Shown: piece after piece, positions 1-24,210 of the stretch
Layout of the letters: every line of letters starts with the position of its first letter
How positions within the stretch are numbered: position 1 is the first letter of the stretch
Assembly (NCBI RefSeq): GCF_001507335.1
Contig: NZ_LMAH01000008.1
Coordinates: forward strand, 1 to 64,000
Length of the DNA: 64,000 nucleotides
Direction of reading: 5' to 3'
From: Chryseobacterium sp. JAH
Lineage (GTDB): Bacteria; Bacteroidota; Bacteroidia; Flavobacteriales; Weeksellaceae
Program-made: the position numbers and the translations under genes
The notes under the pieces: model-generated
What the model was told of the DNA's origin: nothing
What the model saw: the letters and a program-made list of their open reading frames with translations, nothing else
The model's database searches: none

Positions 1-37
1 AAAGTCTCATACATTTATTTGTGTGAGACTTTTTTTT
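1..37 (+). terminator. Rho-independent terminator of a gene upstream of the window
   Basis: Bases 1-13 pair with 20-32 (one mismatch) around a six-base loop, followed directly by a run of T to base 37. It ends a transcript that enters from the left; the gene itself lies outside the window. Confidence 0.8.
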
Positions 38-453
38 GTGCTCAACTTTTGTATGAACATACAGAGTAGCGGGTAAACAAACTAGAAAGTAAAAGAACAA
101 AGAGCCAAGTGAATGCAGAAAATGGGTTTTGAGTCAATAGATTTTAGATCCGAGTAGCTATAGGAGATTAGCGATTTCCATCATCACGTTTAAAGAGATA
201 AGATTGCTAAAGTTTTGAATCAACTAAACCTATTAAACCATTTGGTAGGCATTGCTTAGTAAGGGCAGAATCTGTAAAAGATGTTATGCCTTAAACGGTA
301 TGTTACCCAAGAGCTCTATGTGTTTACCATCTAAAAATTGATTTACTGATAGGTTTTATACTTATAGGTTTCTCGTACGGAGCTCACATTGTTACAAATT
401 GTAATTAAAAAATCAATGATTACCTAGACAAATCGTGTAGAAGGTAATCTTCA
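38..453. other. Long non-coding stretch upstream of the RNA candidate
   Basis: No credible coding frame was found here. The only clear structure is an 8-bp perfect stem (418-425 with 442-449) just upstream of the structured RNA candidate at 454. It has no T run, so it is not an obvious terminator. The rest shows no repeat, tRNA or riboswitch pattern that I recognise. Confidence 0.4.
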
Positions 454-543
454 CTAGCCCGGATCGAAACGACATCCTTTTTTGTGTGCACAGCCAAAGC
501 AAAGGCGCAAAAAAGATACAGTGGAGAGCCGGAATGAGCTCCT
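454..543 (+). ncRNA. Structured RNA candidate, 6S-Flavo-like (copy A)
   Basis: A long hairpin with an internal bubble. The outer stem pairs CCGG after TAGC with CCGG near 530, and the inner stem pairs CTTTTTTGTG with GCGCAAAAAAG. A second copy lies at 22957-23061 on the other strand. The two share TAGCCC, GACATCC/GGCATCC, the T6/A6 stem, GATAyAGyGGA and a closing GCTCCT. At least two stem positions change on both sides (G-C versus C-G in the outer stem, C-G versus G-C after GAT), and one A-U to G-C change is likely, so RNA folding is under selection. The shape and motifs match what I remember of 6S-Flavo RNA, a presumed RNA polymerase-binding RNA of Flavobacteria. That family name is from memory. 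Confidence 0.6.
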
Positions 544-622
544 GGAAAAAACATCTTATTTCGATTTTTATAATAGTAAAGTAATTCGAGCTTATGTGAA
601 TATAAAAATAGAATATTTAAAC

Positions 623-653
623 AAAAAAATCAGGATAGAAAAATCTACCCTGA
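623..653 (-). terminator. Terminator of the ABC-F gene
   Basis: On the minus strand a 10-bp stem (644-653 with 630-639, one wobble pair) and a four-base loop is followed by seven T (623-629). It lies 25 bases beyond the stop codon of the ABC-F gene. Confidence 0.85.
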
Positions 654-677
654 CTCAATATTTTAATGTGATTCTAA

Positions 678-2327
<1,650 letters not shown>

Positions 2328-18995: not shown

Positions 18996-19024
18996 CACAA
19001 CTCGTTCATTTACATATTGAAAAT

Positions 19025-19131
19025 GTTATCAAGAAAGGTTGAGGGATAGACCCTGTGAAACCTTAGCAACCCTTTGTGCAAGCAAAGAAGGTGCTACGTT
19101 CTACCAAAATTTTTTATTTTGGACAGATAAC
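19025..19131 (+). promoter_or_regulatory. SAM-I (S-box) riboswitch
   Basis: The P1 stem GTTATC (19025-19030) pairs with GATAAC (19126-19131). Between them are the conserved S-box core AGAAAGGTTGAGGGA, ACCCTGTGAAACC, AGCAACC, and AAGGTGCTA, and the P4-type hairpin CCAAAAT..ATTTTGG leading to GACAGATAAC. It binds S-adenosylmethionine and lowers expression of the met genes that follow. No strong intrinsic terminator follows before metX, so control may act on translation: the start region of metX lies 60 bases beyond P1. Confidence 0.93.
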
Positions 19132-19193
19132 TTACTGAAGTTCTTTTCAGCCATTTCTCGTGGCATTTTCAAATTTATTTTAATAATATAAAA

Positions 19194-21703: not shown

Positions 21704-21750
21704 GTCCAAAAGTGACGATTTAATATAGATAGGATGAATCTTATCAATCA
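21704..21750 (+). repeat. Interspersed two-hairpin repeat, copy 2
   Basis: GTCCAAAAGTGACGATTTAATA, then GATAGGATGAATCTTATC, lies directly before metZ. It matches copies at 12707 and 23130 in order and spacing. The upper start codon of metZ (21734) falls inside this repeat. Confidence 0.5.
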
Positions 21751-21763
21751 AAATCATATAATA

Positions 21764-22930
21764 ATGGAAAACGAGAATTTTGAAACCCTTGCAATAAGAA
21801 CCCAAACCGAAAGAACTCAGTTTGACGAGCATTCTACGCCTTTGTATCTTACCTCAAGCTTTATTTTTGAAGATGCGGAAGATATGAGAGCGAGTTTTGC
21901 TGAAGAAAAATCAAAAAATCTGTACAGTCGGTTTTCTAATCCTAATGTCACAGAATTTACAGATAAAATCGTGAAAATGGAAGGTGCGGAAGCTGGTTAT
22001 GCTTTTGCAACAGGAATGGCTGCAATTTATTCAACTTTTGCAACTTTACTGAATGCGGGTGACCACATCGTGAGTTGCCAATCAGTTTTCGGTTCTACAC
22101 ATACCCTGTTCACAAAGTATTTCCCCAAATGGAATATCGAAACCACGTATTTTAAAGCTGAGGATTCTGAAAATGTAGAAAAATACATTCAACCCAATAC
22201 GAAGATTTTGTATTTGGAAACACCTACAAATCCGGCAATTGAGATTTTAGACTTAGAATATTTCGGTCAGATTGCCAAAAAACACAATCTTATCTTCATC
22301 GTAGACAACTGTTTTGCCACACCTTACCTTCAGCAGCCGATAAAATATGGTGCTGATCTGGTAGTACATTCGGCAACTAAACTGATGGACGGGCAGGGTC
22401 GCGTTTTAGGCGGAGTAGCAGTTGGTAAAGAAGATCTGATCAGAGAAATTTATCTTTTTGCCAGAAATACGGGTCCTGCAATGTCACCGTTCAACGCTTG
22501 GGTTTTATCGAAAAGCTTAGAGACTTTAGCAATCCGTGTAGAAAGACATTGCGAAAACGCTTTGAAGGTCGCAGAATTTTTAGAAAATCATCCGAATGTT
22601 GAATTAGTAAAATATCCGTTTTTAAAATCTCATCCGAGCTATGAGATTGCCAAAAAACAAATGAAGTTAGGTGGAAATGTAGTGGCTTTCGAGATCAAAG
22701 GTGGAATTGAAGGTGGTAGAAAATTTTTAGATAAAATAAAAATGTGCTCGTTGTCTGCCAATCTGGGTGATACCCGAAGCATTGTGACGCATCCTGCATC
22801 TACAACACACTCCAAGCTGTCTGACAAAGAAAGAAATGAAGTGGGAATCACCGCAGGTTTGGTACGCTGCTCGGTAGGTCTGGAAAATGTGGATGATATT
22901 ATTGCAGATTTGAAACAGGCTTTGGGATAA
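21764..22930 (+). CDS. metZ: O-acyl-homoserine sulfhydrylase / trans-sulfuration PLP enzyme (MetZ-like)
   Basis: PLP enzyme of the Cys/Met metabolism family that forms homocysteine from activated homoserine and sulfide. Seen are FETLAIRTQTERTQFDEHS, YSRFSNPNVTEF (cofactor phosphate), GMAAIYSTFATLL, the aspartate in FIVDNCFATPYLQ, the PLP lysine in VVHSATKLMDGQGR, and the C-terminal SLGD-like ANLGDTRSIVTHPASTTH. The ATG at 21764 (388 residues) is preferred over 21734, because the latter lies in an interspersed repeat. Lies in the SAM-riboswitch regulon. Confidence 0.93.
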   Translation: MENENFETLAIRTQTERTQFDEHSTPLYLTSSFIFEDAEDMRASFAEEKSKNLYSRFSNPNVTEFTDKIVKMEGAEAGYAFATGMAAIYSTFATLLNAGDHIVSCQSVFGSTHTLFTKYFPKWNIETTYFKAEDSENVEKYIQPNTKILYLETPTNPAIEILDLEYFGQIAKKHNLIFIVDNCFATPYLQQPIKYGADLVVHSATKLMDGQGRVLGGVAVGKEDLIREIYLFARNTGPAMSPFNAWVLSKSLETLAIRVERHCENALKVAEFLENHPNVELVKYPFLKSHPSYEIAKKQMKLGGNVVAFEIKGGIEGGRKFLDKIKMCSLSANLGDTRSIVTHPASTTHSKLSDKERNEVGITAGLVRCSVGLENVDDIIADLKQALG

Positions 22931-22956
22931 TGCCATTCTAACAGGAGATAAATATT

Positions 22957-23061
22957 TTAGGAGCAACAAAGGAAGGCTTCGAAACAAGATTCTCCCGCTG
23001 TCCGCTATATCTTTTTTGTTTTGAGAAAACAAAAAAGGATGCCACTTCCATCGGGGCTATG
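22957..23061 (-). ncRNA. Structured RNA candidate, 6S-Flavo-like (copy B)
   Basis: On the minus strand it reads TAGCCCCGATGGAAGTGGC, ATCCTTTTTTGTTTT, then AAAACAAAAAAGATATAGCG and GACAGCGGGAGAATC, ending in GCTCCTAAAA. It folds as a long hairpin with a bubble in the middle, as does copy A at 454-543, with compensating changes in the outer stem. It runs against the direction of the met genes between metZ and metH, with no obvious promoter identified. The 6S-Flavo name is from memory. Confidence 0.6.
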
Positions 23062-23129
23062 TTGAAGATCTATCCTTCGATTCACGGATGAAGATGATTT
23101 AGAAATCTTAAAATTATCTTTAGAGCAAG

Positions 23130-23177: not shown

Positions 23178-23199
23178 AAAACATGTGATATTCAATATA

Positions 23200-24210
23200 A
23201 TGAAAAATTCAGCACAACTATATAAAGCCCTTTCCGAGAGAATCTTAATTCTCGATGGTGCCATGGGGACTATGCTTCAGCGGTATAAATTTGAAGAAGA
23301 AGATTACCGTGGAGAACGTTTCAAAGATTGGGAGCATCCTGTAAAAGGAAACAACGACCTGCTTTCTTTGACGCAGCCTCATGCGATTGAAGAAGTTCAC
23401 AGAAAATACCTAGAAGCAGGAGCTGATATTCTGGAAACCAATACATTTTCCGGGACAACCATCGCAATGGCAGATTATCATATGGAAGAGTTGGTATACG
23501 AACTCAACTACGAATCCGCAAAGATTGCCAGAAAAGTTTGTGACGAGTTTATCGCTCAGAATCCCAACAAGCCGAGATTTGTTGCTGGCTCAATTGGACC
23601 GACTAACAGAACGGCAAGTTTAAGTCCAGATGTGAATGATCCTGGTTACCGTGCAATTACGTTTGAAGAATTGAGATTAGCGTACAAACAGCAGTCGGAA
23701 GCTTTGCTTGATGGAGGGTCAGATATTCTTTTGGTAGAAACAATTTTTGATACGCTGAATGCAAAAGCAGCTTTGTTTGCCATCGATGAAATTCAGGAAG
23801 AAAGAGGAATTCAAATCCCAATCATGGTTTCAGGAACGATTACAGATGCTTCAGGAAGAACATTGAGTGGTCAAACTGCTGAAGCTTTTTTAATCTCAGT
23901 TTCACACTTAAATTTATTAAGTGTAGGATTTAACTGTGCTTTGGGTGCCAATCAGCTGACTCCGTATTTAGAAACACTGGCTCACAATTCAGAATTTTGT
24001 GTTTCAGCATATCCGAATGCAGGTCTTCCGAATGCTTTCGGACAGTATGATGAATCTCCGGACCAAATGGCAGCGCAGATCAGAGAGTATGTGGAAAAAG
24101 GATTAATAAACATTATCGGCGGCTGCTGTGGTACAACGCCTGAACATATCAAGGCAATTGCCGAATTGGTTGATAAATATGAACCTAGAAAGGTGAAAAA
24201 TTTTGTATGA
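23200..24210 (+). CDS. Homocysteine methyltransferase module of a split MetH
   Basis: Carries the zinc- and homocysteine-binding barrel of cobalamin-dependent methionine synthase. Seen are [59 protein letters not shown], and the zinc ligands in [10 protein letters not shown] and [14 protein letters not shown]. It ends at residue 336 without folate, B12 or reactivation domains. Those lie in the gene at 25373, so the enzyme is split. The ATG at 23200 is chosen over a GTG at 23185. Confidence 0.94.

Follow-up and report, generated by a model that had tools for sequence, protein, structure and literature searches.

The window, by which we mean the whole stretch of 64,000 nucleotides analysed from Chryseobacterium sp. 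JAH, contains two similar hairpin elements, here called copy A and copy B (Table 1). A cmscan search of the window gave three Rfam matches above the gathering score, namely a SAM riboswitch and two matches to Flavo-1 (RF01705). Copy A matches Flavo-1 at 452-539 on the plus strand (65.6 bits, E-value 4.2e-12) and copy B matches it at 22987-23062 on the minus strand (75.1 bits, E-value 1e-14), and both exceed the gathering score of 42 bits. The two look-alike elements noticed in the first-pass annotation are thus present, and both belong to Flavo-1, a high-copy family dispersed in flavobacterial genomes that Rfam types as “Gene; sRNA”.

Table 1. Features at the loci of copies A and B, with positions in the window.
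Feature	Position	Strand	Basis
Larger repeat ending with copy A	1..550	+	Window start is one half of a palindrome; related stretches on contigs C7 and C1
Flavo-1 copy A, short-form right end	455..549	+	TAGCCC ... GCTCCTGGAAAAA; cmscan match 452-539 and sequence compared with consensus ends
Left arm of copy A, TAGCCCGGATCGAAACGACATCCTTTTTTG	455..484	+	Sequence; pairing in alignment and folds
Right arm of copy A, GCGCAAAAAAGATACAGTGGAGAGCCGG	505..532	+	Sequence; pairing in alignment and folds
Intrinsic-terminator-like hairpin between the ABC-F gene and copy A	627..656	-	
ABC-F family ATPase gene flanking copy A	678..2300	-	ABC-F models; best PRK15064, 640.8 bits, under the cut-off of 762
O-succinylhomoserine sulfhydrylase gene (called metB)	21734..22930	+	NF006003, 530.4 bits, cut-off 522
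Flavo-1 copy B, long-form right end	22950..23059	-	From TAGCCCC at 23059 to GCTCCTAAAATATTT near 22950
Methionine synthase gene (metH), N-terminal part, downstream of copy B	23185..24210	+	PRK09490 and metH models, partial, below cut-off

The larger repeat that ends with copy A has relatives at G000:C7:177063-177586 (94%) and, for its last part only, at G000:C1:808053-808200 (98%). The start of the contig coincides with the centre of a near-perfect palindrome whose arms exceed 100 nt (window 1-138), and the palindrome belongs to a three-copy repeat that ends with Flavo-1 (window 1-138, L011 931-1150 and L012 1677-1859). At loci L009, L010, L017 and L018, Flavo-1 lies at most 300 nt from the ends of contigs C3, C8 and C5, inside a shared repeat that by eye resembles the promoter region of an rRNA operon. 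The homology among these contig-end repeats ends 11-13 nt beyond the Flavo-1 match, and likewise between L011 and L014. Hairpins similar to the terminator-like one beside copy A were seen by eye at the same position in relatives. Copy B is located about 20-30 nt past the stop codon of metB and is antisense to this gene. The SAM riboswitch (19023-19133, plus strand, 87.7 bits) lies a few kb upstream of the sulfhydrylase and metH genes.

The first-pass annotation compared the elements with 6S-Flavo RNA (RF01685), and remarked that two copies in 23 kb would be odd for a 6S RNA. 6S RNA has a large central bubble, and 6S-Flavo is to our knowledge encoded by a single gene per genome. Flavo-1 resembles 6S-Flavo in being a long bulged hairpin from the same phylum, and it is this shape, seen in the folds of copies A and B, that speaks for the 6S reading. 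However, Flavo-1 has two small 3x3 loops and is multi-copy, and the remark on copy number was well founded, as the genome contains at least 33 matches, these two included. Even at an E-value of 10, the Rfam search did not report 6S-Flavo at copy A or copy B, both loci being identified as Flavo-1. A genome search with the 6S-Flavo model gave one candidate only, on another contig (C2:234312-234416, corresponding to L001 1501-1605), with a sub-threshold score of 47.3 bits against a gathering score of 85; it may be the true 6S RNA of Chryseobacterium sp. JAH. Given the lack of model matches at both loci, the candidate elsewhere and the copy number, the reading of copies A and B as 6S-Flavo RNAs that bind RNA polymerase is contradicted, and we gave it up with near certainty.

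Copy number and anatomy of the Flavo-1 units

At least 33 Flavo-1 matches were obtained in the genome at an E-value of 0.01 or lower, 25 of which are over the cut-off; the count is a lower bound because just 150 of 1017 candidates were scored. The same limit applies to the relatives G008 (at least 106 matches, 150 of 1166 candidates scored), G110 (at least 47, 150 of 553) and G032 (at least 38, 150 of 757). With at most 29 candidates scored per genome, a match was found in 123 of the 148 genomes of the family, and the listed counts within the genus range from 0 (G082 and G145) to 27. Phylum-wide, 44 of 296 genomes have a match, and 29 of these 44 come from two families. A pattern scan identified at least 119 Flavo-1 stretches, mainly in Chryseobacterium, Flavobacterium, Epilithonimonas, Kaistella and Halpernia. 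The copies are akin to one another, so the counts overstate independence. In both the genome of strain JAH and its relatives the copies are many, dispersed, intergenic and palindromic, as are REP elements.

The canonical unit is about 90-150 nt long, with YTAGCC at its left end and GCTNC followed by A-rich DNA at its right end. Between these ends come an outer stem, a pair of 3x3 internal loops (GNA/GGA type in the outer loop), a T/A stem and an apical stem-loop that is exchangeable. The foot is NTAGCC, with mostly C or T as the first base (41% and 33%). No column exceeded 0.45 bit in the 80 nt leftward of 80 copies, which suggests that the unit starts at YTAGCC and has no left extension. The right arm was parsed in 68 of 80 elements, and in 63 of the 68 the right end is GCT[A/C/T]C plus an A-rich stretch, compared to 13 of 68 in a control placed 100 nt further on. 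This motif is located 4-8 nt past the outer stem in 48 of the 63 copies (short form) and at 29-32 nt in the other 15 (long form). The right end of copy A is of the short form, while that of copy B is of the long form, with 29 nt from the outer stem to GCTCC. One subtype has nearly identical sequence on both arms (GATTGCARYGGAAATC), which makes its stem, interrupted by the two 3x3 internal loops, quasi-palindromic. A bulged stem with a variable terminal structure was seen in a set of 92 parsed copies. By eye, the apical stem varies freely in sequence but is mostly still self-complementary, and at times it carries other repeats, such as GTCATTGCG...CGCAATGAC.

Two further hairpins are related to the canonical unit. 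The type 2 hairpin (GCAGCCCGACTTGAGCGGA...) occurs at loci L068, L071-L074, L078, L080 and L086. Seven type 2 spots were compared with Rfam (L073 left out); two of them score 39-40 bits as Flavo-1, below 42, and five were unreported at an E-value of 0.1. Weak, sub-threshold matches to Acido-Lenti-1 (29-34 of 37 bits) were recorded at L072, L074 and L068. The type 3 hairpin (L337 and L336) differs at its outer end, which reads GCGTAAGGGATAG...GGATAGCCCG. Its outer stem was seen by eye as GCGTA/TACGC, GCAAT/ATTGC and GCGAC/GTCGC, and seems to covary. Three type 3 units of G008 pass the Flavo-1 cut-off with 53.0-56.5 bits.

Covariation and the strand of the fold

With copy B read on the minus strand, the compensating changes described in the first-pass annotation are borne out. 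One outer-stem pair is G-C in copy A and C-G in copy B, and the pair after GAT is C-G in copy A and G-C in copy B. The inner change from A-U to G-C, which had been called likely, is seen as A-T in copy A and G-C in copy B, and the neighbouring pair is C-G in copy A and a T-G wobble in copy B according to the cmscan alignments.

The same pattern extends over the family. In a set of 198 unique copies, 196 have a Watson-Crick pair following GAT (T-A 88, A-T 56, G-C 44, C-G 8, others 2), whereas shuffles reach 66 on average and 88 at most. The next two variable pairs are Watson-Crick in 386 of 396 cases, against a shuffle mean of 229 and a maximum of 260. We also used a set of copies found by the exact left-arm pattern, with no structure model in the finding, which gave 120 matches, 10 of which had no parsed right arm, leaving 110. 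In this set, the predicted partners pair in 108, 108 and 107 copies, with expectations of 37, 55 and 91, respectively. The largest excesses at other column pairings were 42 versus 34 in the middle of the internal loop and 92 versus 85 at the third stem position. Slid columns stayed near expectation, and the variable stem positions clearly exceed it only with their predicted partners. The arms are thus conserved, paired and covarying, as is expected of Flavo-1.

The first-pass annotation took the two-sided changes to indicate a selected fold rather than a DNA repeat. The selected fold, with two-sided changes in the stem, stands; the opposition to a repeat does not, since the element is also a dispersed repeat. 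Similarly, of the objection that it had raised against itself, many more copies with no stem covariation, the first half came true, with at least 33 copies in the genome, whereas the covariation is strong.

Single-sequence folds exceed shuffled sequences only modestly, with z-scores of -1.08 (RNA) and -0.88 (DNA) for copy A and -1.95 (RNA) and -3.68 (DNA) for copy B, and the case for the fold therefore rests on the comparison of copies. Both strands fold in silico, and the Rfam strand is the more stable one in 141 (RNA) and 179 (DNA) of 190 copies, these being the ones folded out of 198.

The strands can be told apart by their near-pairs. Counted overall, G-T outnumbers A-C by 62 to 7, which includes copies found by the covariance model that are biased to G-T on the model strand. 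Because of this bias, the near-pairs were recounted in the 110 copies found by the left-arm pattern, where G-T still outnumbers A-C by 38 to 5. The excess in the pattern-found copies shows that the Rfam strand is the strand whose fold is selected. In the <F< contexts, where the adjacent genes would transcribe the reverse complement only, the count is 19 G-T to 1 A-C, and in the >F> contexts it is 5 to 1. The count in the <F< contexts is the main reason for preferring DNA over a transcript, although an antisense transcript whose promoter escaped recognition would account for it as well. The strand evidence thus points to a DNA fold more than to a transcript fold.

Placement and readings at the RNA level

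Gene context was usable for 94 of 110 copies with distinct flanks, the other 16 having none, with open reading frames called by a simple length rule rather than a gene finder. The same-direction contexts comprise 47 <F< and 18 >F> copies, and there are 16 convergent (>F<) and 13 divergent (<F>) ones. A larger, overlapping set contains 85 <F< and 37 >F> copies, and the 30 loci from the genome of strain JAH include 10 <F<, 8 <F>, 7 >F> and no >F<. The distance from the end of the right arm to the stop codon of the antisense gene has a median of 54 nt and quartiles of 18 and 92 nt (63 cases).

TAnnTTTG is the flavobacterial promoter box. There was no excess of this box before Flavo-1, with 31 upstream and 28 downstream on the Rfam strand; on the other strand, 40 are located in the left flank and 19 in the right flank. 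A terminator signal after the right arm was likewise lacking, with T5 within 30 nt in just 7 of 198 copies and A5 in 101; on the reverse-complement strand T5 within 30 nt occurs in 33 of 198 copies and A5 in 35. A promoter and a terminator shared by the copies, as in an independent sRNA gene, were thus not seen around them, which touches the type label given by Rfam and not the membership in the family.

Placement relative to replication was considered as a driver and rejected. In three complete genomes, the leading-skew strand holds 46 of 131 copies (22/65, 14/38 and 10/28), counting over-cut-off matches only and with origin arcs estimated from sampled GC skew. Co-orientation of genes with replication amounts to 132/201, 104/204 and 110/185 in these genomes, and the bias of Flavo-1 is no larger than gene orientation and antisense placement give. 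Furthermore, it runs opposite to a simple lagging-template model.

If Flavo-1 were a structured RNA that acts in cis from untranslated regions, with the Rfam strand as the transcript, this would account for the strong covariation and for the tolerance of G-T on one strand. It would also be in line with the several 5' transcribed regions that overlap Flavo-1 according to the accessible part of a transcriptome study (PMC9723704), and with the 18 of 65 same-direction contexts in which the Rfam strand would be transcribed. However, in the remaining 47 it is the opposite strand that the genes would transcribe, and the G-T excess is equally strong there. The mixture of convergent and divergent placements, and the position of copy A beyond a terminator-like hairpin, also argue against this reading, which we consider unlikely. 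Still less can be said for small RNA genes acting in trans, as the Rfam type “Gene; sRNA” implies. The fold is conserved, as this reading would have it, but a conserved promoter or terminator is not seen around the copies, the copies come by the dozens with variable apical parts, and the part of the published data that we consulted (PMC9723704) contains no consistent transcript; we regard it as very improbable. A passively spreading hairpin that serves as a terminator, insulator or end protector, in double-stranded DNA or at the 3' ends of mRNAs, would fit the frequent location near stop codons and the 33 copies with T5 on the reverse complement. Against this, T5 on that strand is no more frequent than A5 and is rare on the Rfam strand, the reverse-complement RNA is the less stable one in 141 of 190 copies, the tolerance of G-T is on the Rfam strand, and no terminator-like site was found in the region of copy B. 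We therefore think it rather improbable, if somewhat less so than small RNAs acting in trans.

Presence, absence and possible movement

For each of the two loci, orthologous stretches were collected from 30 of 60 genus genomes, including that of strain JAH. At the spot of copy A, a motif test showed no Flavo-1, type 2 or type 3 core pattern within 420 nt beyond the ABC-F gene in any of the 29 relatives. Between metB and metH, inspected by eye in 30 orthologues, Flavo-1 is present in 2, type 2 is present on the same strand in 8 and neither is present in 20, and 5 of the 20 spots lacking both measure 23-37 nt. This spot seems to collect repeats. At L069 and L070, which represent the same orthologous spot, there is an insert of about 850 nt with the start of a RAYT-like gene and AGCCCTGAAAGGGC repeats (by eye).

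Aligned empty sites were obtained for three type 3 units of G008. The unit at site 1 is present in 7 and absent from 2 of 9 aligned loci (one locus with 812 nt between the anchors was left out), that at site 4a is present in 3 and absent from 2 of 5, and that at site 4c is present in 6 and absent from 2 of 8. Filled and empty sites thus coexist in relatives, as for a miniature mobile element, and this presence and absence is compatible with gain or loss alike. These units have the type 3 outer end, though they are over the Rfam cut-off, and for the canonical units with TAGCCC ends the case for mobility draws on copy A, the varying content of the metB-metH spot and the copy number. By eye, the aligned empty sites, whose flanks have diverged, show no obvious target-site duplication. 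The unit at site 1 is retained in species with flanks only about 81-84% alike, and it could therefore have a function for the host. At site 3, a canonical Flavo-1 is located at one place in 8 genomes. The apical stem differs among them and the core is of either of two subtypes, a pattern suggestive of conversion or reinsertion at this site.

Several candidates for a mobilising function were examined and rejected. A RAYT-borne REP was rejected since the Flavo-1 core is absent from the Y1 loci examined. The Flavo-1 and type 2 core patterns were found at none of 30 RAYT/Y1 loci, up to 1.5 kb on each side; these loci represent 30 of the 54 Y1_Tnp matches in 16 Flavo-1-bearing genomes, 15 of which have Y1_Tnp, with no match in G055. 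Nor was the Flavo-1 core pattern found at the four Y1 loci of strain JAH, and by eye the RAYT genes there are associated with different repeats. A four-helix-bundle (IVS-type) protein was rejected as the mobiliser since three such genes in the genome have no Flavo-1 within 400 nt on either side, as seen by eye. Four-helix-bundle genes (23S rRNA IVP, PF05635) occur in intergenic spots at L094 (assigned by eye), L096 and L098, where complementary flanking arms with the potential to form a stem were seen by eye, and thus look like intervening-sequence elements outside rRNA. An autonomous unit with a gene in its loop was rejected since all 39 lone left arms lacked a right arm at a distance of 260-5000 nt in the fetched stretch; among the matches listed, most of them have a right arm close by that does not satisfy the strict pattern. 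A recurrent neighbour gene was rejected as well, the largest family being present in 7 of the 80 loci scanned (out of 119 pattern loci) and at varying distances. The left-arm pattern had no match in viral contigs, and one 111-nt copy of Flavo-1 had no match in plasmid and phage records.

The att sites of integrons offer another comparison. An integron attC site is a folded single strand with a bulged stem and a variable terminal structure, often placed after stop codons and with the folded strand antisense to the gene. Flavo-1 is similar in all these respects, and at one site its apical part and core have been exchanged, as might happen at a folded single-strand recombination site used by a tyrosine recombinase of the host. 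However, the Flavo-1 units appear solitary and not in arrays, their end sequences differ from those of attC, and they go with no known integrase; we consider an attC-like site hardly more than a faint prospect. The REP elements mobilised by RAYT (TnpA-REP) transposases are a further parallel. Like these, Flavo-1 is high-copy, intergenic and palindromic, forms its hairpin on one strand, has a conserved 5' foot (TAGC) and varies in copy number between relatives. It differs in being absent from beside RAYT genes at the 30 loci checked, in having no conserved GTAG or CGTC tag at its foot, and in its length of about 90-150 nt with an exchangeable apical stem. According to the accessible part of PMC6006769, the subclass 2.6 TnpA of Bacteroidetes is associated with “atypical secondary structures”.

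We lean towards the interpretation that Flavo-1 is a REP-like mobile hairpin of single-stranded DNA, recognised in its single-stranded form by a putative protein. The analysis shows the family identity, the copy number, the covariation, the strand asymmetry of the fold, the placement bias and the presence and absence of whole units between relatives; what we infer is a fold made of DNA, a protein bound to it and movement along a single-strand route. The Rfam strand would act as the hairpin recognised by the putative protein, and either this protein or recombination between copies would spread units to new intergenic sites, often in antisense orientation just past the stop codon of a gene. The same protein, or recombination between copies, would also homogenise the core arms. 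More tentatively, Flavo-1 and types 2 and 3 may form one large superfamily of strand-specific single-stranded DNA hairpins that are moved and rewritten in place by a putative recombinase or transposase not carried along with them, the core arms being under selection for this enzyme and the apical stem being exchanged for other palindromes. We see this wider proposal as possible, though it is the less probable of the two.

Flavo-1 became a candidate RNA in 2010 and has stayed unexplained. It was then entered as an RNA with “y” and as cis-regulatory with “n” (Weinberg et al. 2010, PMC2864571, in the part consulted), and a review, in its accessible part, names it in a section on the “most abundant small RNAs” (PMC9029176). 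In Flavobacterium psychrophilum, Flavo-1 overlaps several 5' transcribed regions, in sense and antisense alike, and many copies lie in none (PMC9723704, accessible part). The available portions of open-access papers matching Flavo-1 or RF01705 give no function for it, and a description of it as a DNA element was not found in the titles and abstract openings of open-access work on flavobacterial palindromic repeats or small RNAs.

Flavo-1 is thus ordinary in its identity, as a known Rfam family, and less ordinary in its nature. Both copies in the window agree with RF01705 in scoring above the gathering score and in coming from the same phylum, and they depart from its typing as an sRNA gene in that no gene-like promoter or terminator was found and in that strand and placement suggest a function at the DNA level. 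The count of G-T versus A-C near-pairs in antisense contexts provides a simple test of RNA or DNA folding for any family of “structured RNA”. If the superfamily exists, it would represent a third arrangement beside REP/RAYT and attC/integrase, and an “sRNA” family of Rfam would become a family of mobile DNA. If Flavo-1 is a DNA hairpin, its small-RNA label is misleading, and some flavobacterial genomes would hold about a hundred sites for a protein that binds or recombines DNA.
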